In this document: in pieces, positions 2,285 to 56,144 of the stretch
Layout of the letters: every line of letters begins with the position of its first letter
Position numbering within the stretch: position 1 is the stretch's first letter
IMG/VR virus record: IMGVR_UViG_3300025117_000042
Coordinates: 39,541-103,540 of that record
Strand: one strand, 5' to 3'
Source: a virus
DNA: 64,000 nucleotides
The notes under the pieces: generated by a model
Databases searched by the model: none
What the model was told of the DNA's origin: nothing
The model's input: the letters and a program-made list of their open reading frames with translations, nothing else
Made by a program: the position numbers and the translations under genes

Positions 2285-3493
2285 ATGAATTTAGTACAGC
2301 TTGTATCCTTTGATACTCTACCTTATGCAAAGTTCACTCTGACAAGAGATATAGCTGCCGGGGCTACTGACATTTATTTGACTGCTACTGAGGGTTTATC
2401 TAAAGGGAGTTTTCTAATAGTAGGTTCTATCAATAGTCCTACAGCTCAGTTAGTAGAGATAGATTCAATAACAAACTCTACAACTGTTAAACTTGTTGCT
2501 GCCTTGAGATATGCACATCTAATAGATGATCCAGTTACTTTAACTCTTTTCGATCAGTTTAACATCTATTTCGGTACTACCGCTGACTTTAATAGCCATA
2601 CCCTTCTGGACACTATTGATATTATGGTATCCAGAAATATCACGACTTACGTGGATGAGGACACTTCCCATACACCTTCTACCTTTTACAGCTATTCGTA
2701 CTATAATTCAGATACCGGGATTGAGAGCAACCGTATTCCGGTCATCTCCTCTGGCCTGGATATTGACATTACTCCTCAATACCTCCGTGAGAACTATCTG
2801 TATGGGTTGGATCTTACGGAAGATAACGGAAACCCTCTCCCTGAAGGCGTGTATTGGGAAGGCATTAAAGCTGGTATAGATTGGCTTGAGCAAGTTTTGA
2901 ACATTGATATTATATCTCGTACTCATACTGATGAGATGAGTGACTTTAATAGACAAGAGTACTTGCAATGGGTATTCCTTAAAGCCAAACACTTCCCGAT
3001 CAGAGAAGTTCTGTCAGTAAAAGGCTCTTATTACGGTAATGAAATTACTTTCCCGCTAGATTGGGTAAGGCTAAAAGAACGAGCTGGTATTATAAATCTT
3101 GTTCCTGGGGCTTCTACGTTCTCTAGCTTCCTTATTCCGGCAAGCGGGGGCATTCTTCCCATATTAAACAATCAAGTATCGTACATACCAGGATTCTGGA
3201 GAATTTCTTACACATCAGGATTTGCCAGAGGGACAATTCCTTACAACCTCAAGGCTTTGATCTGTAAAAAAGCTGCATTCATGCCTCTGAACATCCTGGG
3301 CGACTTGGTTGGTGGTGTTGCTATTGCCAGTAAGAGCATTGGTATAGACGGCTTGAGTCAGTCTATTAACACTACAAACAGTGCTGAGAACGCTGGTTAT
3401 AGTGCAAGGCTTAGAATGTACCTGAAAGAGATAGATCAGGAGCTTCCACAGGTTCAGAAATTCTGGCGACCTATTAATTTTGTATGTGTTTGA
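2285..3493 (+). CDS. Putative head-tail connector (neck) protein with N-terminal beta domain
   Basis: 402 residues. Residues 1-165 look like a beta-rich domain (strand-like TDIYLTATEGLSKGSFLIVG and similar). Residues 185-402 are more helical, with a basic end (NAGYSARLRMYLKEIDQELP). A SIGIDGLSQSI segment followed by a helix resembles the C-terminal part of gp6/gp15-type connector proteins. In myoviruses the next genes would be head closure, tail completion, tail terminator and then sheath, and the sizes of the four genes that follow fit that order. The connector assignment is by synteny and weak similarity; the virion role is safer than the exact position. Confidence 0.6.
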   Translation: MNLVQLVSFDTLPYAKFTLTRDIAAGATDIYLTATEGLSKGSFLIVGSINSPTAQLVEIDSITNSTTVKLVAALRYAHLIDDPVTLTLFDQFNIYFGTTADFNSHTLLDTIDIMVSRNITTYVDEDTSHTPSTFYSYSYYNSDTGIESNRIPVISSGLDIDITPQYLRENYLYGLDLTEDNGNPLPEGVYWEGIKAGIDWLEQVLNIDIISRTHTDEMSDFNRQEYLQWVFLKAKHFPIREVLSVKGSYYGNEITFPLDWVRLKERAGIINLVPGASTFSSFLIPASGGILPILNNQVSYIPGFWRISYTSGFARGTIPYNLKALICKKAAFMPLNILGDLVGGVAIASKSIGIDGLSQSINTTNSAENAGYSARLRMYLKEIDQELPQVQKFWRPINFVCV

Positions 3494-3501
3494 GGTGACA
3501 A

Positions 3502-4164
3502 ATGGGTAAGGCAAGCCAACGAGTTGATTTCGTTGTTGAAGAGTTTGATAAAACAATAAAAGAAAAAGGCTATCATCTATTACATGAAAAAGCTTATCGG
3601 TGTCCTTGTGTCAATGACTCCGGTGAGCTTCAGATAACCTGTCCTCACTGTCATGGCAAAGGTATACGCTACGTGGGAGATGCCGCACGTATAGAGGGTA
3701 TCCTTACCAGCATGAGCAAGGATTGGATGTTCGATGAGTACGGAGTATCATCTACAGGGACTGTCTATGTAACGACACATGCAAAGTATAAGCTTGGTTT
3801 TGCTGACAGACTTACTCTATTAGACGGTAAAATAGTGTTTTCTGAAGTAATCGAAAATCTCAATACAATTCCGGTACTTAAGTATCCTATAATTGACGTT
3901 GACTCTATTGTGAGTTTTAATAAAGTTTATGTGGAAAATACTGATTACTCTTTGGCTAATGGAGTTATCACTTGGCTTAAGCCTGTACATGAGGCTTACA
4001 GCATTCGTTATATTACATATCCTACTTTTATTATTCTTAATTTCCCGAACGTTGTCAGAGGTACACAGGCTAAAGTAAAACAGCCGGTCATTCGGTATGT
4101 AGATCTGCCAGTACGAGCCTTAGCTAAGCTGGAGTTCAAAGTAAAGGTAGCTGAGTTACAATAA
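3502..4164 (+). CDS. Putative head-closure/neck protein with zinc-binding motif
   Basis: 220 residues. Near the N-terminus a four-cysteine motif (CPC at about 34-36, then CPHCHGKG at about 47-54) should bind a metal, probably zinc, after an initial helix. The rest is beta-rich. CPxCxGxG-type insertions occur in head-closure and adaptor proteins of large myophages, and position two before the probable tail terminator supports this. It overlaps the next gene by one base. Assignment is by synteny; metal binding is a motif-level prediction. Confidence 0.6.
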   Translation: MGKASQRVDFVVEEFDKTIKEKGYHLLHEKAYRCPCVNDSGELQITCPHCHGKGIRYVGDAARIEGILTSMSKDWMFDEYGVSSTGTVYVTTHAKYKLGFADRLTLLDGKIVFSEVIENLNTIPVLKYPIIDVDSIVSFNKVYVENTDYSLANGVITWLKPVHEAYSIRYITYPTFIILNFPNVVRGTQAKVKQPVIRYVDLPVRALAKLEFKVKVAELQ

Positions 4165-5466: not shown

Positions 5467-7233
5467 ATGAGTGTTTACAAGGGGATTTACTTTCGAGGTC
5501 GGGGCATCATCATTCCCGGTGCCTATGCTGATGTAGACGCAACAAGCATGGTGCCGAACAGATTGTCTCCTGCCAATGTCCTTGCAATGCTGGGGCAAGC
5601 TAAAGGTGGGGTTCCGAATCAAGCTGTGCGGGTTCTTAACCTGCGGGATGCTGTAAACATGCTGCGGAGTGGCGATCTTAAGACTGCGGCAGAACTTGCC
5701 TACGATCCAAGTGCTGACATGCCTGGAGCTGGGGAAGTTATCTTTATCAGGGTAGCTGGTACAGGTTGTGCTAGATCAACTTCTGACCTTTCGAGTCAGG
5801 TTACTCTTACAGCCGTTGACTATGGGGAACATACAAACTTTCTCCGTAGGAAAATTGAAGCTGGTTCTGTAGCTGGCCGGAAAATCACTATCAACCATCA
5901 GGCAGATGATATTACAGAAGTATATGATAACATCGGGCCTGTCTTTCAAATCCAGTACGTAGGGTCTGCTTCGGCTGCTCGTATGAGTTTCGATGCTAGT
6001 ACAAAGATTCTGCTTATCGAAATAAATACTGGTTCGTGGGTTCCGCTGGTTACTTATACTGTAACCAACATTGCTGTTGATACAATCTCTGAACTTGTGA
6101 CTATCCTTGACTCTCATCAGGATCTTACTTGTAATATACACAAGTATGGTTCTGGCAACATGAGTTCTTCTTTGCTGGATGCAATGACTCAGGTTGATAT
6201 TAAAACCGCTCTTACCACTGTATCTTCTGAAGTTGGTTCTCTTATCACTTGGGTTAACAATCGTTCTGCGCTGTGTACTGCGGCTGCTGGTGTGTCTGCC
6301 ACTGGTAACTTTACTAATAGCAACTGGACAAATTTCGTAAACGGTTCTGAAGGTTCCGCTCCTGATGTAGCTGCATGGTCGGCAGCTCTGGCTCTTCTTG
6401 AGTCTGAGACTGATGTTAAATACATCTATTGTGCTACTGACAATGAATCCATCCATACCGCAGCTATCGCACATTGCACCACTCAGTCAGATCCTAAAGT
6501 AGGCCGGGAACGTAGGCTTATCTTCGGTGGTGCTGCTTCTGAAACTGTCGATCAGGCTACTACAAGGGCTATCAATCAAGGTTCTCCAAGAGCCATGCTT
6601 GTATATCCTGGTATCAAGCGGGTTAACGCTCAGACTAACCTGTTGACCGTTATTCCTCCGTATCTCACAGCCGCAGCTGTCGCTGGAATGGCTGCTGGTG
6701 CTACGCCGGAAACTCCGCTTACCTACAAAACCATCAAAGCTCATGGGATGGAAAAATACCTGAAGGATGCTGAAGTTGAACAGCTCCTACAACAGGGTGT
6801 TACTCCTATTCGGTACGTAAAAGAAGATGCTATCTATCAGATCGTTCAGTCTATTACAACTTGGCAGAAAGATGCCAATGTAATCTATCGCAAATGGTCT
6901 GGTATGGGCATTCACGATTACCTCCGTCAGGAAGCTCGTAATACGGCTAAACCATTCATCGGAAGAGTAGGCGATATGTATGCTATGTTGTCTATTAAAA
7001 ACGCCGTAGCAGCAAAACTTGACCTTCTTACCCGTACTCCTCAGAATCCTAACGGTGTCCTTACGAAAGTATGGGACTATGCAAAAGAGCAGGTACTACC
7101 TGCTTGGGATAACCTGTTGGTTGAATGGGATGGTTATGACCATGTAAACGTTTCCTTCAGGGCACATCCTGTCGGGGAAATTGCTTACATCACGATCATG
7201 TGTACTCTTGAACCTGCAAAGATGACAGTATAA
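5467..7233 (+). CDS. Tail sheath protein
   Basis: 588 residues, within the size range of contractile-tail sheaths. The N-terminus carries the usual handle (MSVYKGIYFRGRGIIIPGAY). The C-terminal domain is the conserved core, with a VGDMYAMLSIKNAVAAKLDLL segment, a helix-rich WDYAKEQVLPAWDNLLVEWD stretch, and a final strand pattern ending IAYITIMCTLEP. Sheath subunits polymerise around the tail tube and contract to drive it through the envelope. The tube gene follows at once, the classic pair. The variable central region (about residues 100-330) is an outer-domain insertion. Confident assignment. Confidence 0.92.
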   Translation: MSVYKGIYFRGRGIIIPGAYADVDATSMVPNRLSPANVLAMLGQAKGGVPNQAVRVLNLRDAVNMLRSGDLKTAAELAYDPSADMPGAGEVIFIRVAGTGCARSTSDLSSQVTLTAVDYGEHTNFLRRKIEAGSVAGRKITINHQADDITEVYDNIGPVFQIQYVGSASAARMSFDASTKILLIEINTGSWVPLVTYTVTNIAVDTISELVTILDSHQDLTCNIHKYGSGNMSSSLLDAMTQVDIKTALTTVSSEVGSLITWVNNRSALCTAAAGVSATGNFTNSNWTNFVNGSEGSAPDVAAWSAALALLESETDVKYIYCATDNESIHTAAIAHCTTQSDPKVGRERRLIFGGAASETVDQATTRAINQGSPRAMLVYPGIKRVNAQTNLLTVIPPYLTAAAVAGMAAGATPETPLTYKTIKAHGMEKYLKDAEVEQLLQQGVTPIRYVKEDAIYQIVQSITTWQKDANVIYRKWSGMGIHDYLRQEARNTAKPFIGRVGDMYAMLSIKNAVAAKLDLLTRTPQNPNGVLTKVWDYAKEQVLPAWDNLLVEWDGYDHVNVSFRAHPVGEIAYITIMCTLEPAKMTV

Positions 7234-7267
7234 CCAAATACAGTAGTTAAAGGGGAGGTGTTACAAA

Positions 7268-7711
7268 GTGCCTAACACGTTTATTACAACTGGTCATAAC
7301 ATCCTTTTGAAGGTCAAAGGAGAAGAGGTAGGTGCCGCAAGGAGCATCGTCGGGAATCAGGACTTCGGTGTTGAAGGTGCCTATGTAATCGGTTCCATCC
7401 TTCCTGTAGAGAACACTCCGCAGAAATGGACAGGCAACCTGGAAATCGACAAGTTCTTTATCAAACGGGATATCCATCTTCTGGCTAACGTTGATACAAG
7501 CTCTGAAGGGGTACTGGAAATCAGTCCTGTTGATATCGAAATTATCGAAAAAGAAACAGGCAGCACTGTTATGATCTATCAGGGATGTACTCTTACATCC
7601 ACGACCATCACAATCACTGCCAATGCCTATGTAGGAGAAAGAGCAGTATTTGTACCGTTGCGGGTCATTCGTGCCGCTTTGGGCAAATCCATCCTTCCTC
7701 CAGGGGTTTAA
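7268..7711 (+). CDS. Tail tube protein
   Basis: 147 residues starting at GTG, preceded by GGGGAGGTG. Size, position right after the sheath and alternating beta pattern fit the tail tube (gp19-like) fold, whose hexamers stack to form the inner tube. The gene is followed by an intrinsic terminator before the chaperone genes. Such a terminator would let major tail proteins be made in excess of the proteins encoded downstream. High confidence from synteny; no catalytic motif is expected. Confidence 0.85.
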   Translation: MPNTFITTGHNILLKVKGEEVGAARSIVGNQDFGVEGAYVIGSILPVENTPQKWTGNLEIDKFFIKRDIHLLANVDTSSEGVLEISPVDIEIIEKETGSTVMIYQGCTLTSTTITITANAYVGERAVFVPLRVIRAALGKSILPPGV

Positions 7712-7742
7712 CAATAAAACCGCATATTTAGGTATCTTTCTA

Positions 7743-7772
7743 GGGGAGGAGTCAATCAGGCTCCTCCTCTTT
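7743..7772 (+). terminator. Intrinsic terminator after the tail tube gene
   Basis: An 11-bp stem (7743-7753 with 7759-7769, GGGGAGGAGTC type, two G.U pairs) and a 5-nt AATCA loop are followed by TTTATCTATT. It sits 32 nt after the tube stop. Partial read-through must feed the chaperone and tape measure genes downstream, as no promoter is visible in the 30 nt before them. Confidence 0.7.
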
Positions 7773-34080: not shown

Positions 34081-34923
34081 ATGGCTGAGAATCTGAAAAC
34101 ACTTTATGAGACTGCTGATGACTGCTTTGGGAAGATGCCGGATCTGACTGAACCTGAATGCGTTAAGTGCCACAACCTTGAAGCTTGTCAGGCGTGGAAA
34201 GCAGCTGGGGGCGATCCTGCGGGTAAGGTTGAGAAACCGGCTAAAGTCAAAAAAGGCGGGAAAAAGCCTGTCGAGGAGCCTAAGCAGGAAGAGCCTGAAG
34301 TTATTACTGAGCGGGAAGAAATGACACCTGAACCTGGGCCTGAGCCTGAAGTTATTACCGAGCGGGAAGATGCACCAGAAGTAGTAGCTGAACCGGCCAA
34401 AGAACCGGCCAAAGGTAAAGGGAAACAGGCTAAAGCTCCTGCTAAACCTGAGAAGAAAGCTCCTGCGAAACCGGCCAAAAAAGAGGCGGCAAAGAAAGCA
34501 TCGGCAAAGAAAGCCGATGTGAAAAAGGAAGCTCCTAAATCAGTCGAGAAACCCGCTAAAAAGGGTAGCGAGGGTAAGGCTAAGGGTAAAAAAGAAAAAC
34601 CAGCTCAGAAGGCAAATGTGAAGGCTGAGAAGCCAAAAAAAGTTACTGAGCGTAAACCGGTCGATGAACATGGTTTCCGTATCGGCACCAAGACAGCAAG
34701 GTATTTTGCCCTGTTGCAGGAAGGAACGCACACGGCAGATGATATTATCAAAATCACTTCCAAAGAGTTCAAGTGTCCGATGTTGAACAACTATGGAACG
34801 TTCAAAGTCTTCCTGTCACATCTCCAGAGCGTACCGGAAGAAGGCGGCAATAAGAAGTACTCTGCAAGTCGAGGGATCAAGGTTCACCAGGATGAGAGCG
34901 GTGTTCTGAGTCTTCGGAAGTAA
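34081..34923 (+). CDS. Lysine-rich histone-H1-like protein with zinc and winged-helix-like ends
   Basis: 280 residues in three parts. N-terminal Cys cluster (CVKC and a third Cys, about residues 27-35). Then a Pro/Glu section containing two copies of EPEVITERE. Residues 110-195 are a KPAKK/AAKK-type basic repeat like histone H1 tails. The C-terminal 70 residues (GTKTARYFALLQEGTHTADD) look like a small winged-helix domain. It should coat DNA or alter nucleoid structure. It is preceded by its own promoter and followed by a hairpin, so it may be made abundantly. Confidence 0.65.
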   Translation: MAENLKTLYETADDCFGKMPDLTEPECVKCHNLEACQAWKAAGGDPAGKVEKPAKVKKGGKKPVEEPKQEEPEVITEREEMTPEPGPEPEVITEREDAPEVVAEPAKEPAKGKGKQAKAPAKPEKKAPAKPAKKEAAKKASAKKADVKKEAPKSVEKPAKKGSEGKAKGKKEKPAQKANVKAEKPKKVTERKPVDEHGFRIGTKTARYFALLQEGTHTADDIIKITSKEFKCPMLNNYGTFKVFLSHLQSVPEEGGNKKYSASRGIKVHQDESGVLSLRK

Positions 34924-34931
34924 AGGTAGGG

Positions 34932-34964
34932 TTCCCCGGTTGGTCATGGGGATTGACCGGGGAA
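34932..34964 (+). terminator. Hairpin after the H1-like gene
   Basis: TTCCCCGGT (34932-34940) pairs perfectly with ACCGGGGAA (34956-34964); an inner GGTCA/TGACC pairing is an alternative. There is no T tract (TTACACAC follows), so termination would be weak or factor-dependent; it could also stabilise the upstream mRNA. Confidence 0.45.
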
Positions 34965-34988
34965 TTACACACAAGAAAGGGGTTGGTG

Positions 34989-35120
34989 ATGGAACGCAAG
35001 GTTAGGTTTTGTTTCCCAAGTTTTCTTTGGTTTCATACAGGCAAGGTAGTGAAGGAGAATTCAGATGGCAGCATGGTTGTGGAGGTAGAGATACCAAAAA
35101 GCTGTCTATTACAAGATTAA
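34989..35120 (+). CDS. Very small protein
   Basis: 43 residues with AAAGGGG seven bases upstream. The aromatic N-terminal half (RFCFPSFLWFHTGK) is followed by a beta-like acidic half. No family known. Good RBS and fit between neighbours are the only support. Confidence 0.45.
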   Translation: MERKVRFCFPSFLWFHTGKVVKENSDGSMVVEVEIPKSCLLQD

Positions 35121-35132
35121 AAGGAGGCTCAT

Positions 35133-35315
35133 ATGAAAAGACGAGAAATCTATGATGGGCGTAAAGGTCGGTTGCGGAAAGAAGCAGAAGAACGCAACAC
35201 AAAATGGGCTGCTCTAACTCCCGCAGAACAGCTCAGGGAGCTGGATAGACGAGGTGTGGTTGCAGAGAAACAGCGAACACGGATTTTGAAAAAGCTTTCG
35301 GCAAATATACAGTAA
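35133..35315 (+). CDS. Small basic protein with LTPAEQL motif
   Basis: 60 residues, RBS AAAGGAGG. Strongly charged N-terminus (RREIYDGRKGRLRKEAEER) then LTPAEQLRELDRRGV and a Lys/Arg helix. The ALTPAEQLxELDxR pattern recurs in small proteins of many phages with no assigned function. Likely binds nucleic acid or a partner protein via its basic helices, an inference only. Confidence 0.65.
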   Translation: MKRREIYDGRKGRLRKEAEERNTKWAALTPAEQLRELDRRGVVAEKQRTRILKKLSANIQ

Positions 35316-35330
35316 ATATTCTATGGCAGC

Positions 35331-35368
35331 AGGGGTAGCGTACCTATACAAGGTGCTACCCTTGTTTT
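35331..35368 (+). terminator. Intrinsic terminator before the UDG-exonuclease gene
   Basis: GGGTAGC (35333-35339) pairs with GCTACCC (35355-35361), extended by a G.U and an A-T at the base and an inner ACC/GGT pairing. It is followed by TTGTTTTG. It closes the operon containing the H1-like gene. Confidence 0.65.
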
Positions 35369-35387
35369 GTCTTTAAGGTACTGAATT

Positions 35388-36566
35388 ATGCAATGTGAAT
35401 TCTCAGAAAGCTGTAGTCTGCATGGTTCCTGTAACAGCCCTAAGATCAGAATTGAAGGAAAGGTAAACCCTGATGTGCTGATCATTAGCGACTGCCCACA
35501 TGCTGAGGATGATAATTGTAACAGCGTCCTGGTAGGTGAAGGTGGGGAGCTGTTACGTGAAGCTTTGAGGGGCAATGGTTTTAATCTTAGCAAAGTAGCT
35601 TATACGTTTGTGGTGAAATGTAGACCTACGCAACAGAAGTGGGGTAAGATCGTAAATCGTGATCCTTCAGACAAGGAAGTAAAAACGTGTAAGCCTTTTG
35701 TATTAGCAGAGATAGAGGTATTCAAGCCAAAGATCATCCTCCTACTAGGCTCTGTAGCGTTCAAGGCTGTATTAGATGGTAAGGGGATCATGGCTAACCG
35801 GGGAAGGCTGTTTGAATACAACGGTATCCCGGTCATTCCGACCCTTCACCCTGATATGGTTATTAGAGATGATACACATCTAAATCCTTTCGTTAAAGAT
35901 ATCGAAACCCTGTGGAAGTTCTTCACCGGCACTATGCCAGTAGAGGAAAAGCCTACTGATTATATTCTCTGTGACACCAAACAAAAACTAGATGATCTAA
36001 TAGACTATGCTTCAGATAAAGATGAGTCAGCAGTTGACTTAGAAACATCTACTCTCAACATGTTTAAGGATGATTCACAGATCGTATGCTGTAGTTTTTC
36101 CTTCTTCGAATATGAAGCTCACATAATACCTTTGTATAATAAACAACAAATTTTTACCGGCAAGATGTTGAATTACGCAAAAGCGGTGTTAAAGATATTA
36201 TGTGAGTCTGAAATTAGGAAGATCCTTCAAAATGGTAAGTTCGATATCAAGTACCTGGAAGTGACGGAAGGTATTCTATTAAACAACATGGTTTCAGATA
36301 TCATGATGAAGTCCTACCTGTTCAATGAAGAGGCTAAAACACATGCTCTGGATTATCTGGTGTGGCAGTATGTGCCGGAAATGGGGAGCTATTGGGATGG
36401 TCTGGAGCAGTACAAGGCAGAGCACAAGGATTGTGATCCTGAGCAAGGCGGGACGTACAGGAATATTCCTTGGAAAGTAATGATACCTTATGTTGGAGCA
36501 GATACTGATGCTACTATTAGAATAGATCATCGGCTGAATGATTTACTGAAAGGAAAACAACCATGA
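35388..36566 (+). CDS. UDG-like domain fused to DNA polymerase 3'-5' exonuclease (split polymerase, part 1)
   Basis: 392 residues. Residues 1-180 match family-4/5-type uracil-DNA glycosylase: Cys3/9/15, LVGEGGELLREAL, VKCRP (Cys78), TCKPF (Cys101), LLLGSVAFKAVL and the PTLHPDM motif. The family's GEAPG-like catalytic motif is replaced by SDCPHAEDD, so activity is uncertain. Residues 190-392 are a DnaQ/PolA exonuclease: Asp217-x-Glu219 (AVDLETS), NGKFDIKYL and YVGADTDATIRI. It stops exactly where the PolA thumb would begin; the polymerase domain is the separate gene at 37541. Resembles SPO1-type UDG-exo-pol fusion, here broken. Confidence 0.85.
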   Translation: MQCEFSESCSLHGSCNSPKIRIEGKVNPDVLIISDCPHAEDDNCNSVLVGEGGELLREALRGNGFNLSKVAYTFVVKCRPTQQKWGKIVNRDPSDKEVKTCKPFVLAEIEVFKPKIILLLGSVAFKAVLDGKGIMANRGRLFEYNGIPVIPTLHPDMVIRDDTHLNPFVKDIETLWKFFTGTMPVEEKPTDYILCDTKQKLDDLIDYASDKDESAVDLETSTLNMFKDDSQIVCCSFSFFEYEAHIIPLYNKQQIFTGKMLNYAKAVLKILCESEIRKILQNGKFDIKYLEVTEGILLNNMVSDIMMKSYLFNEEAKTHALDYLVWQYVPEMGSYWDGLEQYKAEHKDCDPEQGGTYRNIPWKVMIPYVGADTDATIRIDHRLNDLLKGKQP

Positions 36567-36982
36567 AGATCTACATTGCATCTTGTAACCAAAACGTAGC
36601 AAGATCAGTTGCAGATTGTCTATTAAAAGAAGGTGGGTTTGAGATAGTGTCTACCTGGATCTATAAGGAGTTTAGCCGTACAGCAGATCTTACTGTTGAG
36701 GAACGGATTGAGATAGCTACCAGGGACACCAAGGAAGTATGCAGCGCCGATGCTTTGGTATTGTGTAGCGGGATACAACACTTTGCTGGCGGGAAGCATG
36801 TAGAAGCTGGCATAGCTATCGGTAGAGGCATTCCAGTTATAATATATGGTCATATAGAAAACATGCTTTATTGGAATCCAGATGTAGAGTGTTACAGTAA
36901 TATGGGCGAAGTACTACTGAGTCTAATAGCAAAGAAGCATGCGAAATATGATTATGTCTCTGAACACTTCACAAGAGGGTAA
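36563..36982 (+). CDS. Nucleoside 2-deoxyribosyltransferase-like protein
   Basis: 139 residues overlapping the exonuclease gene by ATGA. The pattern IYIASCNQNVARSVADCL, CSADALVLCSG, FAGGKHVEAGIAIGRGIPVI and a final small domain matches nucleoside deoxyribosyltransferase/TIR-like proteins common in phages. Members move deoxyribose between bases or remove bases from dNMPs. The Glu of HVEAG fits the usual nucleophile. Location inside the polymerase locus points to nucleotide pool or base-modification work. Substrate unknown. Confidence 0.65.
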   Translation: MKIYIASCNQNVARSVADCLLKEGGFEIVSTWIYKEFSRTADLTVEERIEIATRDTKEVCSADALVLCSGIQHFAGGKHVEAGIAIGRGIPVIIYGHIENMLYWNPDVECYSNMGEVLLSLIAKKHAKYDYVSEHFTRG

Positions 36983-37001
36983 AAGAGAGGAGTTATTGTC
37001 T

Positions 37002-37541
37002 ATGATTGTGCTTGTCGATATGGATGGAATTGTAGCTAAGTTAGAAGAACCTTGGCTAGCTTTGTATAACAAAGATTATGATGACTGTCTTGTGTCAGAG
37101 GATATGACTGATTTCGATTGGTCGAAGATAGTAAAGCCTGAATGTGGCACTAAGATCTTCAGTTATTTAGCTACAGAAGGCTTATTTCTTAACTGTGAGC
37201 CTTACGAAAACTCAGTTGATGCTTTATTACAACTATATTTAGACAAGCACGAACTGTATTTTGTAACAAAAGCTCATAATCTGGCAAAGTTTGCCGTTAT
37301 AGAGAAGATGGATTGGGTTGACAAGCACTTTCCGTTCATAGGTCGAGATAAAGTTATTTGTACAGGTTATAAGCACTTGATTCGTGGAGATGTTTTAATA
37401 GATGACTACCACAAAAACTTCCGTGGTTTTCAGGGTAAGAAGCTCCTGTTTGATCGTCCCTGGAATAGGAGTGCTTGCGAGATTGATCTGGTGAGAGTTT
37501 ACACCTGGGATCATGTACTTTATGAAATAGAGAATATGTAA
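37002..37541 (+). CDS. 5'(3')-deoxyribonucleotidase (NT5C/HAD family)
   Basis: 179 residues from ATG 37002, preferred over an earlier frame opening at 36939 because AGAGAGGAG lies nine bases upstream. HAD motif I DMDGIVA (DxDG), a FDWSKIV segment, FVTKAH (motif II) and LIDDYHKNF (motif IV) match the 5'-nucleotidase NT5C family. It removes phosphate from dNMPs and would shape deoxynucleotide pools. The end overlaps the polymerase start (TAATG). Confidence 0.8.
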   Translation: MIVLVDMDGIVAKLEEPWLALYNKDYDDCLVSEDMTDFDWSKIVKPECGTKIFSYLATEGLFLNCEPYENSVDALLQLYLDKHELYFVTKAHNLAKFAVIEKMDWVDKHFPFIGRDKVICTGYKHLIRGDVLIDDYHKNFRGFQGKKLLFDRPWNRSACEIDLVRVYTWDHVLYEIENM

Positions 37542-38902
37542 TGCTTGACGGTGTGTTTCCTTCACAAAATAGTTTCTCAGAGGTAAACGATCATCTGTTT
37601 ATCCCTGCACTGTACGCTCTTAAAGAGGTAGAGAAGCAGGGATTTACTATTGATATGAATAAGTTTCTCTGTTTAGAGGAAGGTTACACAGTAAAGCTGA
37701 ATCAACTGGAGGATAGAGTCAGGAGCTATCCTGAAGTATTGAGTGTAGAAAAGAAGATAGACAAGAAGTTTAACCTTAATTCAGGGGATCAGATACATGA
37801 GCTGTTCTTTGTAGAGATGGGTCTATCTCCTGAAGGTATAGAACCGACAGATAGCGGTAAACGGTTAAGCACTGGTAAGAAGACCATAGCAAAGCTGAAA
37901 GATAAGCATGAGATAGTAGAGCTTATCAATCAGCATAAGAAGTACGCCACACTGTATAAGATGTTCGTTAAGCCATTGAGGAAGCACATTTGTCTTGATG
38001 GCAGGGTACATTGTGTCTATCTCCCTCTTACAAAGACAGGGAGGCTTATCTGTTTCGATCCAAACCTTCAGCAGATACCAAAGAACATAAAAGCTGCTGA
38101 CATAGGTTTCGACTTCGATCCTGCTCTGAACATAAAAACTATGTATATTCCATTCGATAAAGATTATTTATTGATGGAAGCTGACTATAGCCAGATGGAG
38201 CTTAGAATCCTTGCAGCCTATTGCCAGGATGAGGTGATGAAGGGGATCTTACTGCGGGGAGAGGATATTCACTTAGCTACAGGTCAGGCTATGGCCGATA
38301 TCGTGGAGCCTGGGGTTATTGTAGACAAGGACAGCAAATGGAGGAAAGCAGCAAAGACAATCAACTTTGGTATTATATATGGCGAGGGTGACAAGGCTCT
38401 AGCCGAGGCTCTGCATGTAACAGAGAAGGAAGCAAAACAGTTTAAGCGTAACTACTTCGATAGCATGCCTGGGGTTGAAACCTTCCTTGATGATGTATAC
38501 AATTTCGTATACGAAAATAGGTATGTTACTACAATGTTTGGGAATTACCGGAGGTTGTTGGGGGTAACATCTCCTCAGAAGTTTGTCAGGTTTGAGGCAC
38601 TGCGGCAAGCTTTGAACATGCCGATCCAAGGTACAGCAGGGCAGTACACTATCTGTGCTATTATAAACATCATTGATATTATACGTAAGTACAAGATGAA
38701 GTCTCGTATAATAGCAACAATTCACGACTCCATTATGTTTTGTGTACATAAAGATGAGATAAAACAAATGGCAGAGATAGCTCAGACAGTTATGGCGAAT
38801 CCTACTAACCCATTGATTTATTGGGATCTAGGTGTACCACTGAAAGCAGATTTGAAGTTGAGTGAAAATAGTTGGGCGGATCTGAAAGATTTTACACCGT
38901 AA
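37541..38902 (+). CDS. DNA polymerase I-type polymerase domain (split polymerase, part 2)
   Basis: 453 residues: thumb (about 20-150, EKQGFTIDMNKF), then palm/fingers. Motif A LMEADYSQMELRILAAY, motif B KAAKTINFGIIYGEG, motif C TIHDSIMFCVH; all catalytic residues are present. No exonuclease domain; this is the gene at 35388, so together they equal a normal PolA with a UDG extension. The start overlaps the nucleotidase stop and has only a weak RBS, implying coupled translation. The two parts must presumably associate. Confidence 0.92.
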   Translation: MLDGVFPSQNSFSEVNDHLFIPALYALKEVEKQGFTIDMNKFLCLEEGYTVKLNQLEDRVRSYPEVLSVEKKIDKKFNLNSGDQIHELFFVEMGLSPEGIEPTDSGKRLSTGKKTIAKLKDKHEIVELINQHKKYATLYKMFVKPLRKHICLDGRVHCVYLPLTKTGRLICFDPNLQQIPKNIKAADIGFDFDPALNIKTMYIPFDKDYLLMEADYSQMELRILAAYCQDEVMKGILLRGEDIHLATGQAMADIVEPGVIVDKDSKWRKAAKTINFGIIYGEGDKALAEALHVTEKEAKQFKRNYFDSMPGVETFLDDVYNFVYENRYVTTMFGNYRRLLGVTSPQKFVRFEALRQALNMPIQGTAGQYTICAIINIIDIIRKYKMKSRIIATIHDSIMFCVHKDEIKQMAEIAQTVMANPTNPLIYWDLGVPLKADLKLSENSWADLKDFTP

Positions 38903-38960
38903 CGGGTATATACCCTAGTATGAGGGCTAAATTCCAACAGGGAGGATTAAAGGATAGTAT

Positions 38961-39464
38961 ATGGTAAAACACGATGCAGGAATTTTGAAGTTGTCTATTA
39001 CATTGGATCGTAAGTATGAGTGTGACTTGAACACTGACCTTGATATCGACAAAGGAGCTATAGATAAAGCTTTGTCGGATCAGCCTTCTATGTTTGCGTG
39101 GTACGCAGTGTTGAGTGAGATGGCTAAAGCAGCTGCTCTGTCGGCAAAAAATGACCTGGAATTGACAGAGGCTGAGTTGGATCAGCAGATAAGGAGAGAG
39201 TGGGATACAGACAAGTACGGAAAAATGACTGAAGCAGGTATACAGTCTATTATGCGAATGCTCACAAAGCATAAAAGAGCTGTAGAAGCCTATCATACAG
39301 CAAAGAAGAATGAAGGAATAATGGCTGTAGCAAAGCAGTCGTTCGAACAGCGTAAGGACATGCTTATCAGTATTGCTTCCAACATGAGAGCTGAGATGGA
39401 TGTGAATCTCAGAATCAATAAGCAATCAGTAGCAGAGAAAATCAGAAAGATAAAGGAGAGCTAA
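38961..39464 (+). CDS. Putative recombination mediator (UvsY-like)
   Basis: 167 residues, mostly helical and charged, beginning with a short beta segment (ILKLSITLDRKYECDLN) then ALSDQPSMFAWYAVLSEMAK and long helices rich in Lys/Glu. Encoded just before the SSB gene and near RecA, the usual place of UvsY-type mediators that load recombinase on SSB-coated DNA. Size fits. No diagnostic motif; assigned from order and composition. The 58-nt gap upstream holds a palindrome GGGTATATACCC (38904-38915) of unknown role. Confidence 0.5.
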   Translation: MVKHDAGILKLSITLDRKYECDLNTDLDIDKGAIDKALSDQPSMFAWYAVLSEMAKAAALSAKNDLELTEAELDQQIRREWDTDKYGKMTEAGIQSIMRMLTKHKRAVEAYHTAKKNEGIMAVAKQSFEQRKDMLISIASNMRAEMDVNLRINKQSVAEKIRKIKES

Positions 39465-39467
39465 GTA

Positions 39468-40493
39468 ATGGCATTCTCAGCGGAAGATGCAAAGAAGAAA
39501 CTGGCAGAGCTTAAAGCAAAAAACAAGGGAGGTGATTATTTACAGTGGAAAGATGGTGCTAACAATCTTAGGGTACTGTGTGACGAGGATCTTGATTGGT
39601 ACGCTGAGGTAGACTTGCATTATTTTAAAGTAGGCAAGGATACAATGGCTGTAGCTTGTAACAAGTCGATAGATGGCAGTGACTGTTACTTCTGTAATAT
39701 GGTAGAAGCTCTGTATGCTACTAAAGATAAAAATGATAAGGAGCTGGCAGGTAGGCTAAAGGCAAAGACACGCTTTTATGCTAATGTAATAGATCGTGAT
39801 GATGACAATAAGATCAAAGTAGCTCAGTTTGGTTCTCAGGTGTTGGAAGGTATGCTAAAGTATTTTGCTCATATCGACTACCAAGATGATTTGTTCACAA
39901 AACCTGATGGGTTTAATTATGATTTTATTGTCACAAAAGCCGGAGAAGGCAAGGATAATACCAAGTATTCTGTTGAGGCTCGTAAGAATCCATCGAAGTT
40001 GGGTGTAAAGAGAGAAGATATCAAGCTTGCCGATCTTAACGCTCTGGCAACAACAGAAGTGTTTACTGCCGATGAGCAGGAGAAGTTGCTGGATGGCACA
40101 AGCAAGGAAGATATTATAAAAGCTAGGAAAGGGGGAGGCGATACAAAGAAGGAGACTAAGAAAGAAACCAAGAAAGAAGAACCTGCGCGTAAAGCGAAAC
40201 CGGAAGTCAAGAAGATGAGTCCAGAAGACAAGTATGCTGAGTATATTAGCAAACTTCCGATGGAGATTCCTAAAGTCAAGAAGCTGTACAACCTGTGGTT
40301 GGAAGATGATGGCACAGAAGAAGGTATCCTTGCCCTGGTCGAGAAGTATGGCGAGGATGATGATCCACCTGTTCCGCCTGAAGAGGAAGAAACTACACCT
40401 GAAACTGAGTCCGGTGATGGAGAGGAATCAGATCTGGATGCAGAGATTAAGGCAGCAGCCGCACGTTTTGCTAAAGGTAAAGGTAAAAAATAA
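39468..40493 (+). CDS. Single-stranded DNA-binding protein, gp32-like
   Basis: 341 residues. An N-terminal Lys-rich helix (EDAKKKLAELKAKNKGGDYL) leads into an OB-like core with a metal site (CNKSIDGSDCYFC, about 63-75) as in T4 gp32-type proteins. Residues 225-250 are a KKETKKE repeat; after it comes an acidic region (EEEETTPETES) and finally a basic FAKGKGKK end. The acidic segment should contact replisome partners. It protects ssDNA beside the mediator gene. Good match in layout. Confidence 0.75.
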   Translation: MAFSAEDAKKKLAELKAKNKGGDYLQWKDGANNLRVLCDEDLDWYAEVDLHYFKVGKDTMAVACNKSIDGSDCYFCNMVEALYATKDKNDKELAGRLKAKTRFYANVIDRDDDNKIKVAQFGSQVLEGMLKYFAHIDYQDDLFTKPDGFNYDFIVTKAGEGKDNTKYSVEARKNPSKLGVKREDIKLADLNALATTEVFTADEQEKLLDGTSKEDIIKARKGGGDTKKETKKETKKEEPARKAKPEVKKMSPEDKYAEYISKLPMEIPKVKKLYNLWLEDDGTEEGILALVEKYGEDDDPPVPPEEEETTPETESGDGEESDLDAEIKAAAARFAKGKGKK

Positions 40494-48824: not shown

Positions 48825-49369
48825 TGAAAAAAGGTGGTGGCAGTCTTAAAGGGGGGGCTTTTGAGCGTCAAACTGCAAAGACCTTATCTTTATGGCTCAG
48901 TAACGGTTCTGATAAGGATTTGCTGTGGAGAACGGCATCCTCTGGAGGTAGAGCATCTACTGGCAAGGCAACAACGGGGTTTGGGGATCTTGGTATAGAT
49001 AAGGATCATCCTGATGCCAGGAGGTTCCTCAAGCTGTTTTGTGTCGAGTGTAAGAACTACAAAACAGTATCTATTACAAAAGCCTTCTTCAACGAGAAGA
49101 ACGATCTGTGGAAGTGGTGGGATCAGGCTGTTACACAGGCTAAAGGCGCAGGTTGTTGTCCTATGCTAATAGCTAAAGGTGACAGGCAACCTACGCTGTT
49201 GATATTACCGACAGAGCTTACTTATCTAATAACTAAGATAAAGTTCTGCATGTTTACTGATTCAACTTTGCAAAGCAGTGTGATAGCTGTAGACTTTAAC
49301 GAGTTCCTGGTTACACATACATGGAAGGATGTTTATAATACAATGAAGTCATTTGGAGGTGTCAAGTGA
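48824..49369 (+). CDS. PD-(D/E)XK nuclease, possible junction resolvase
   Basis: 181 residues. The restriction-endonuclease-like core is clear: FERQTAK (Glu14), GDLG (Asp55), and VECK (Glu75/Lys77), with a later helical/strand part. This arrangement is shared by Holliday-junction resolvases and recombination nucleases. Encoded in the recombination-packaging segment, it could resolve concatemers before packaging. Fold call is firm, exact substrate not. Confidence 0.7.
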   Translation: MKKGGGSLKGGAFERQTAKTLSLWLSNGSDKDLLWRTASSGGRASTGKATTGFGDLGIDKDHPDARRFLKLFCVECKNYKTVSITKAFFNEKNDLWKWWDQAVTQAKGAGCCPMLIAKGDRQPTLLILPTELTYLITKIKFCMFTDSTLQSSVIAVDFNEFLVTHTWKDVYNTMKSFGGVK

Positions 49370-49719
49370 GGAAGTTTGAGACAGGAGCAACACGTAATAG
49401 TGATACAAGCAAGTTTGACTACGAGGGCTTTCTGTCACCAGCTGTGTTAGAGAGGTTCGGTGCTTATATGCACAAGCATCGTACACAAGCTGATGGTAAT
49501 TTCAGGGACTCTGACAACTGGCAAAAGGGAATGCCGAAGACACAGTATATGAAGTCTCTCATAAGGCATACTATTGACTTGTGGAGAGCACATAGAGGTT
49601 ATATTGTAATAGACAAGGACTCAGGTGAACGTGTTACAAAGGAAGAGTTGCTTTGTGCTATTATCTTTAACGCTCAAGGTTATCTGTTTGAGATGCTACG
49701 TAAACGGAAAAGACAATGA
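49366..49719 (+). CDS. dATP/dGTP diphosphohydrolase-like protein (DUF5664)
   Basis: 117 residues from GTG 49366 overlapping the nuclease stop. The family signature is visible: KFETGATRNSDTSKFDYEGF, SPAVLERFGAYM, NWQKGMPKTQYMKSLIRH and a helical end. The family is annotated as N-terminal region of dATP/dGTP diphosphohydrolases, which lower purine dNTPs. With the deoxynucleotidase and deoxyribosyltransferase-like genes it suggests deliberate pool control. Activity is inferred. Confidence 0.65.
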   Translation: MRKFETGATRNSDTSKFDYEGFLSPAVLERFGAYMHKHRTQADGNFRDSDNWQKGMPKTQYMKSLIRHTIDLWRAHRGYIVIDKDSGERVTKEELLCAIIFNAQGYLFEMLRKRKRQ

Positions 49720-55460: not shown

Positions 55461-56144
55461 ATGAAGGAATATCATAAGATACAGACCATCTATAAGAGGG
55501 ATATGTTCTCGAAAGAAAAACATATATTAGAGGGTCAGTGGTCTTTGCCTGAATTCGAGTTCTTGCAAAATAATATATGGGAGTTCACTGAAAAGGTGGA
55601 TGGCACCAATATTCGTGTAATGCCTACAGAAACAACAGTATTATTTGGTGGGAAGACCGATAACGCACAGATACCCGCACCTCTGGCTAATCGGTTGAAT
55701 GAGCGGTTTTTACCTTTGCATGAGCGTATGGTGGATTTGTTTAGGGATAATATAGGTTCAGTGTGCTTATATGGCGAAGGGTATGGAGCCAAGATTCAGA
55801 AAGGTGGAGGGAACTACCGGCAAGATCAGGATTTCGTGTTGTTTGATATTAGAATAGGTGAATGGTGGCTGCAACGTAATGATGTGGAGAATGTAGCTGC
55901 TACTCTTGGATTGGAGATTGTACCTGTAATAGGGTACGGTACGCTTCACGATGCTATTAGAACAGTTAAGAATGGTTTGTTATCAATGTGGGGGATTTTC
56001 AGGGCTGAAGGGATCGTCGCAAGACCGAAGGTGGAGCTTAAAGCCAGGAGTGGTCAGAGGATTATTACCAAGATCAAGTGTTGTGATTTTGACTTGGGAA
56101 GGGGAGACTATGGAAGCGATCAGGTATCTGGAAAAGGTAATTGA
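55461..56144 (+). CDS. ATP-dependent RNA ligase (Rnl2-type)
   Basis: 227 residues. Nucleotidyltransferase motif I EKVDGTNIRV (Lys45 nucleophile), motif III VLFDIRIGEWW, motif IV AEGIVARP and motif V ITKIKCCDF. Covalent nucleotidyl transfer is well supported; RNA rather than DNA as substrate is inferred from small size and family resemblance (RNA_ligase). Phage RNA ligases commonly repair host-cleaved tRNAs; the tRNA-like element at 31930 is a possible partner. RBS AAGGAG. Confidence 0.8.
   Translation: MKEYHKIQTIYKRDMFSKEKHILEGQWSLPEFEFLQNNIWEFTEKVDGTNIRVMPTETTVLFGGKTDNAQIPAPLANRLNERFLPLHERMVDLFRDNIGSVCLYGEGYGAKIQKGGGNYRQDQDFVLFDIRIGEWWLQRNDVENVAATLGLEIVPVIGYGTLHDAIRTVKNGLLSMWGIFRAEGIVARPKVELKARSGQRIITKIKCCDFDLGRGDYGSDQVSGKGN

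Follow-up and report, generated by a model that had tools for sequence, protein, structure and literature searches.

A SPO1-type family-A DNA polymerase divided between two viral genes at the border of its exonuclease and polymerase domains

Family-A DNA polymerases usually couple proofreading and synthesis in a single chain, and a DEDD 3'-5' exonuclease domain is common, though not universal, among them. In Pol III, which belongs to an unrelated polymerase family, the proofreading exonuclease (epsilon) is a subunit separate from alpha, a logic that would be comparable to the arrangement described here if the two halves associate. Among the nearest known counterparts of the present locus are gp31 of phage SPO1 and M3_0059 of Lysinibacillus phage LysYB1, which place a uracil-DNA glycosylase (UDG) domain before the exonuclease and the polymerase and have one ORF across the exonuclease-polymerase border; the SPO1 and Goe26 genes are interrupted inside the polymerase domain. 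The family-A polymerase of phiLo (PDB 9qhs) carries UDG and exonuclease in a single chain of 1142 residues.

Split phage polymerases are already known. The available text of PMC10580990 describes a PolA encoded by two ORFs that flank a small one in the OM43 phages MEP401 and MEP402, and likewise in most related metagenomic genomes; that break lies inside the polymerase domain, its authors consider an intron possible, and the text examined was not found to mention a UDG. In their accessible parts, PMC7824862 mentions split PolIII alpha and stand-alone exonucleases in jumbo phages, and PMC12926913 a separate DnaQ subunit. ExnV1 (PDB 7r0t), a PolA-type exonuclease without a polymerase from a virus metagenome, indicates that such a domain can fold and crystallise alone; it is without a UDG, is probably a truncated gene according to its authors, and has no partner gene reported in the available text (PMC9629493). 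A PolA split at the exonuclease-polymerase border or through the exonuclease was not found described in the literature searched, which lay mostly outside subscription journals.

We analysed a stretch of 64,000 nucleotides (the window), which covers positions 39541-103540 of a linear virus record of 103,540 bases that may be incomplete. With a probability of roughly 0.7, we consider that the sole recognised replicative polymerase encoded here is a SPO1-type UDG-exonuclease-polymerase that underwent one fission at the exonuclease-polymerase border and would now work as a two-subunit proofreading enzyme. Features of the locus are collected in Table 1.

Table 1. Features of the split polymerase locus in window coordinates, with GenBank loci of a second, differently broken clade in the last line
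Feature	Position	Strand	Basis or remark
UDG-exo gene, split polymerase part 1, 392 aa; family-4-like UDG fold, then DEDD 3'-5' exonuclease	35388..36566	+	ORF, Pfam, conserved residues, structure alignment
UDG domain, aa 24-167	35457..35888	+	Pfam PF03167; structure alignment, Z of about 25 to 1ui0/4zbx
3'-5' exonuclease domain, aa 194-387	35967..36548	+	Pfam PF01612; aa 187-389 align to Klenow 324-518
Exo motif I, D217-x-E219	36036..36044	+	alignments
Exo motif II, NGKFD 282-286	36231..36245	+	alignments
Exo motif III, Y368-x3-D372	36489..36503	+	alignments
ATGA overlap, UDG-exo stop/NDT-like start, 4 nt	36563..36566	+	L010 UDG-exo likewise ends in ATGA
Inserted gene 1, NDT-like (nucleoside 2-deoxyribosyltransferase), 139 aa	36563..36982	+	Pfam match under cut-off; L009 counterpart above it
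Inserted gene 2, NT5C 5'-deoxynucleotidase	37002..37541	+	listed ORF 36939-37541; likely start 37002
PolA polymerase gene, part 2, 453 aa, thumb, palm and fingers	37541..38902	+	ORF, Pfam, structure alignment
N-terminal peptide VFPSxNS, aa 5-11	37553..37573	+	conserved in three split pols
Polymerase domain, aa 9-449 = Klenow 519-928	37565..38887	+	1kfs, Z 38.0, 398 aligned, rmsd 2.4
Motif A, D215-R222	38183..38206	+	alignments
Motif B, R268-G281	38342..38383	+	alignments
Motif C, H395-D396	38723..38728	+	alignments
L063-type GenBank loci	OQ632216.1 87636-98605; OZ195729.1 114611-118490		break between exo motifs II and III

An earlier reading of the DNA, made from the sequence only and without database searches, had placed two nucleotide-metabolism genes between the halves, and Pfam bears it out. 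NT5C scores 149.5 bits on the second inserted gene; the first scores 21.4 bits against a cut-off of 28.8 in the window, and its counterpart in the related contig L009 passes with 32.1. The flanking genes score 70.8 bits (UDG) and 72.3 bits (DNA_pol_A_exo1) on the UDG-exo ORF and 301 bits (DNA_pol_A) on the pol ORF. The same reading had described clean starts and coupled overlaps. Each half does have its own start, and overlaps were found at two junctions, namely the ATGA listed in Table 1 and a TAATG through which NT5C overlaps pol by 1 nt at 37541. NT5C, in turn, probably starts at the ATG at 37002, behind AGAGAGGAG, and not at 36939, so the overlap is absent at the NDT-NT5C junction, where this start leaves a gap of 19 nt. 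Since 35388 and 37541 differ modulo 3, the halves lie in different frames and stop read-through cannot join them. The genes would share a single message and have their translation coupled.

AlphaFold2 models of UDG-exo (pLDDT 92.8) and pol (pLDDT 91.5) were aligned with the Klenow fragment. The exonuclease part of the former matched Klenow 324-518 (1kln, Z 23.8, 188 aligned) and the latter matched 519-928, so that the two predicted proteins together account for the whole Klenow fragment without a gap; on these models the break lies between Klenow residues 518 and 519. The sequence-only reading had put the split at the exonuclease-thumb border, with a UDG plus DEDD exonuclease as first gene and a pol that begins at the thumb and keeps motifs A, B and C, all of which agrees with the Pfam matches, the intact catalytic residues and the alignments to Klenow. 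It had also let the first protein end right after motif III: the motif is indeed near the end, and 20 further residues follow it, up to residue 392. Motifs A, B and C together with the Klenow-like fold place the pol half in family A, and the DEDD 3'-5' exonuclease domain of this family-A enzyme sits in a separate protein. The top Foldseek match of the UDG-exo model is the phiLo polymerase, where the profile match covers UDG and exonuclease of one unbroken chain, in contrast to the split in the window.

Conservation was examined in one alignment of 38 rows for each half. Exonuclease residues D217, E219, N282, K284, F285 and D286 are invariant there and D372 nearly so, and Y368 is invariant in 7 rows; in pol, D215, E220, R222, K272, F276, Y280, H395 and D396 are invariant. 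The pol N-terminus carries about eight residues beyond the Klenow alignment. The stretch corresponding to its VFPSxNS peptide differs in the aligned fused relatives, and this peptide is possibly a docking segment. The UDG fold is retained in the model. Cysteines C78 and C101 are nearly invariant in the 38 rows, and N-terminal C3 and C9 are conserved in 3 rows; these are candidates for the four Fe-S cysteines of a family 4 UDG. H154 is present in the window and in at least 90% of the 38 rows and is replaced by Asn in L009. Together with the GEAPG-type first motif, which deviates in each of the three split rows, this makes UDG activity doubtful, given the catalytic roles that these residues presumably have. 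In L009 (UDG region, 6001-7185) a UDG motif reads Asn-Pro where the window and L010 read His-Pro, and by sequence the catalytic status of the UDG may differ between the split contigs.

The same break was found in two other contigs. L009 (102,805 bases) has the same four genes as the window at 69-79% protein identity, and L010 (9.5 kb) is broken at the same border with two unrelated small ORFs in place of NDT and NT5C; one of these, of 141 aa, had no match in Pfam or PHROGs. The exonuclease-polymerase border has carried differing cargo, NDT plus NT5C in two contigs and two small ORFs in the third. An assembly or sequencing error might be suspected in metagenomic contigs, and the apparent split of another locus, L016, does lie over assembly Ns. 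The independent contigs L009 and L010 refute this explanation for the window. Moreover, the halves are separated by intact coding sequence of about 1 kb, and a comparison of the window with L009 gives a low dN for both (0.22 for UDG-exo, 0.16 for pol) at near-saturated dS. Both halves are under purifying selection. They co-occur in all three contigs of the clade (the window's record, L009 and L010), none of them cultured, so the lack of co-occurrence in relatives that would have counted against the earlier reading was not seen. Clade-specific scans yielded no contigs beyond those of L009 and L010, single-sequence scans of viral contigs with either half as query found nothing, and a scan of genome contigs returned one distant PolA at 31%.

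Unsplit relatives, for which the sequence-only reading had proposed a search, were found in number. Among the matches listed, 122 IMG/VR loci, not counting the window, had a UDG-exo region. The chain was fused in 108 of these matches; it was fused across the border and interrupted later inside pol in seven (including L016, tried as a split and rejected), had its UDG in another ORF in two, ran off the contig uninformatively in two, and had exonuclease and polymerase apart in three (L009, L010 and L063). The breaks in L052 and L106 may be frameshifts or fissions. For phylogeny, 80 of 95 loci were kept once near-duplicates and loci covering fewer than 330 profile positions in exo or 380 in pol had been excluded; after removal of six long-branch rows, quick trees with a midpoint root were built for each half from 74 rows. 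Both trees recovered the same 13-row SPO1-type clade (SH-aLRT 97 for UDG-exo, 87 for pol), which includes SPO1, Goe26 and LysYB1, and grouped the three split rows at support 100; all other members of the clade are fused across the exonuclease-polymerase border. Congruent half-trees inside an otherwise fused clade point to a derived and maintained fission, and not to an error or an intron. These sequences would be most simply explained by a single fission, in the common ancestor of the three contigs, of a SPO1-type polymerase that had until then been fused. These trees, with L009, L010 and the low dN, favour the fission with gene insertion that had been proposed from the sequence over a sequencing error, and the proposal that SPO1-like phages encode UDG, exonuclease and polymerase in one chain holds across the border for SPO1 and LysYB1. 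With these two proteins the split one shares domains, their order and the clade of both halves, and the gene order pol, SSB, RecA, 5'-3' exonuclease resembles that of LysYB1; it is a split derivative of the SPO1 type that has the UDG-first order and lacks the continuous chain. That the halves came from two different polymerases and were brought together with no fission is very unlikely: UDG, exonuclease and polymerase do combine otherwise elsewhere, as in L119 with its UDG in a separate ORF, but each half independently recovers the same clade and the same three-row subclade.

An intron-interrupted or protein-spliced gene, whose chain is rejoined later as in SPO1-like polymerases, is a reading to which we give hardly any credence. 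SPO1 gene 31 contains an intron, and L019, with an Rfam group I intron, shows that interruptions inside pol such as those in the seven listed loci can be of this kind. Because the Rfam gathering threshold missed the SPO1 intron, a permissive setting was used; it detects that intron at E 0.0015 and gave nothing for window 34900-39500 with E values up to 1, although introns of divergent sequence may escape it. Each half has its own start and stop, the break falls on a domain border, and the insert consists of two ordinary genes, neither matching a homing endonuclease. There is no room for an intein, since the profiles cover UDG-exo aa 2-392 and, in the 458-aa frame of pol, begin at aa 17.

We then weighed whether the two halves of this fission still act together. 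Most likely they form a two-subunit proofreading polymerase, in which UDG-exo would dock on pol roughly where the Klenow exonuclease domain sits and would supply proofreading in trans. It is rather unlikely, though a serious alternative, that the fission is real and the halves no longer associate, which would leave a pol without intrinsic proofreading and UDG-exo as a free repair exonuclease. The models predict that either half can fold without the other, ExnV1 provides an exonuclease-only PolA relative that is soluble (PMC9629493, available text), and PolAs with an inactivated exonuclease occur in phages and bacteria according to the accessible parts of PMC11348598 and PMC12926913. Against this stand the strong constraint on every exonuclease motif and the placement of both genes in one tight run in all three contigs despite their differing cargo. 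A profile search of the window's 103,540-base record, moreover, found no second PolA and no PolB, PolC or RNase_T match, hence neither the second full polymerase that the earlier reading had named as contrary evidence nor an RNase_T-type alternative proofreader. The record of L009, which is linear and may be incomplete, holds one PolA and one PolA-type exonuclease. Conserved natural fissions of this kind suggest that these phages can do without the covalent exonuclease-polymerase link, and split Klenow-type enzymes offer ready-made material for studying the hand-over of primers from the exonuclease to the polymerase site.

Another clade has its UDG-exonuclease-polymerase in separate genes like the window, sometimes with cargo or an HNH gene between, but is broken between exonuclease motifs II and III. 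One ORF of L063 (5809-8815) contains UDG and motifs I and II, and the next contains motif III and the polymerase. A scan with the L063 pol ORF returned eight loci: L137 (on L063's own contig), L138-L143 and a distant PolA, L144. L138-L142 have the L063-type break with a full-length pol ORF, and L143 has the same break with pol interrupted again; this type of break is present in seven further IMG/VR contigs, six with a full pol ORF. The four L063-clade records checked have a single PolA each. An HNH endonuclease gene lies exactly in the break in L138 (2656-3294) and L139 (5367-6005) and is absent from L063 and L140-L143. GenBank members of the clade are Vibrio phage D69 and Salmonella phage Arash. 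In Arash, motifs I and II are found in gp168, annotated as a uracil DNA glycosylase, and motif III and the thumb in gp154; about 7.8 kb and 13 annotated genes separate the two. In both phages pol is broken a second time at motif B (between gp154 and gp152 in Arash), perhaps by an intron.

A break between motifs II and III divides the exonuclease site over two chains. In the L063/Arash clade a proofreading site would therefore require two gene products to come together, and this need for two chains, if the site is formed, lends support to an association in trans, itself a conjecture; with an isolated phage at hand, the in-trans site is directly testable. When the window and L063 clades were considered together (AU-test tree, ten long-branch rows dropped), the best tree needs two changes, and a single clade gave an AU p of 0.17, no rejection. 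Separate fissions are proposed mainly because the break positions differ. The chances seem even to us that phage family-A proofreading polymerases became multi-subunit at least twice, between domains in the window clade and through the exonuclease site in L063/Arash, and that the junctions dock cargo genes and homing endonucleases.

Several neighbouring features were also recorded. Thymidylate kinase-like and YfbR-like 5'-deoxynucleotidase genes lie just upstream of UDG-exo in L010 (260-1499), unlike the window, which has its NT5C within the break. In L119 a UDG-like ORF (3471-4079) is separate from the exo-pol ORF (5893-7755), about 1.8 kb apart, and by its ORFs appears to be a third break position in the UDG-exo-pol family. 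Window 49366-49719 gave a weak match, under the Pfam cut-off, to the N-terminal domain of dATP/dGTP diphosphohydrolase. RNA ligase, Thg1-like and RlaP-like genes were noted in the window (55461-56144) and in L135 (2548-3237 and 5871-6827), and possibly constitute an RNA repair set of the window phage.
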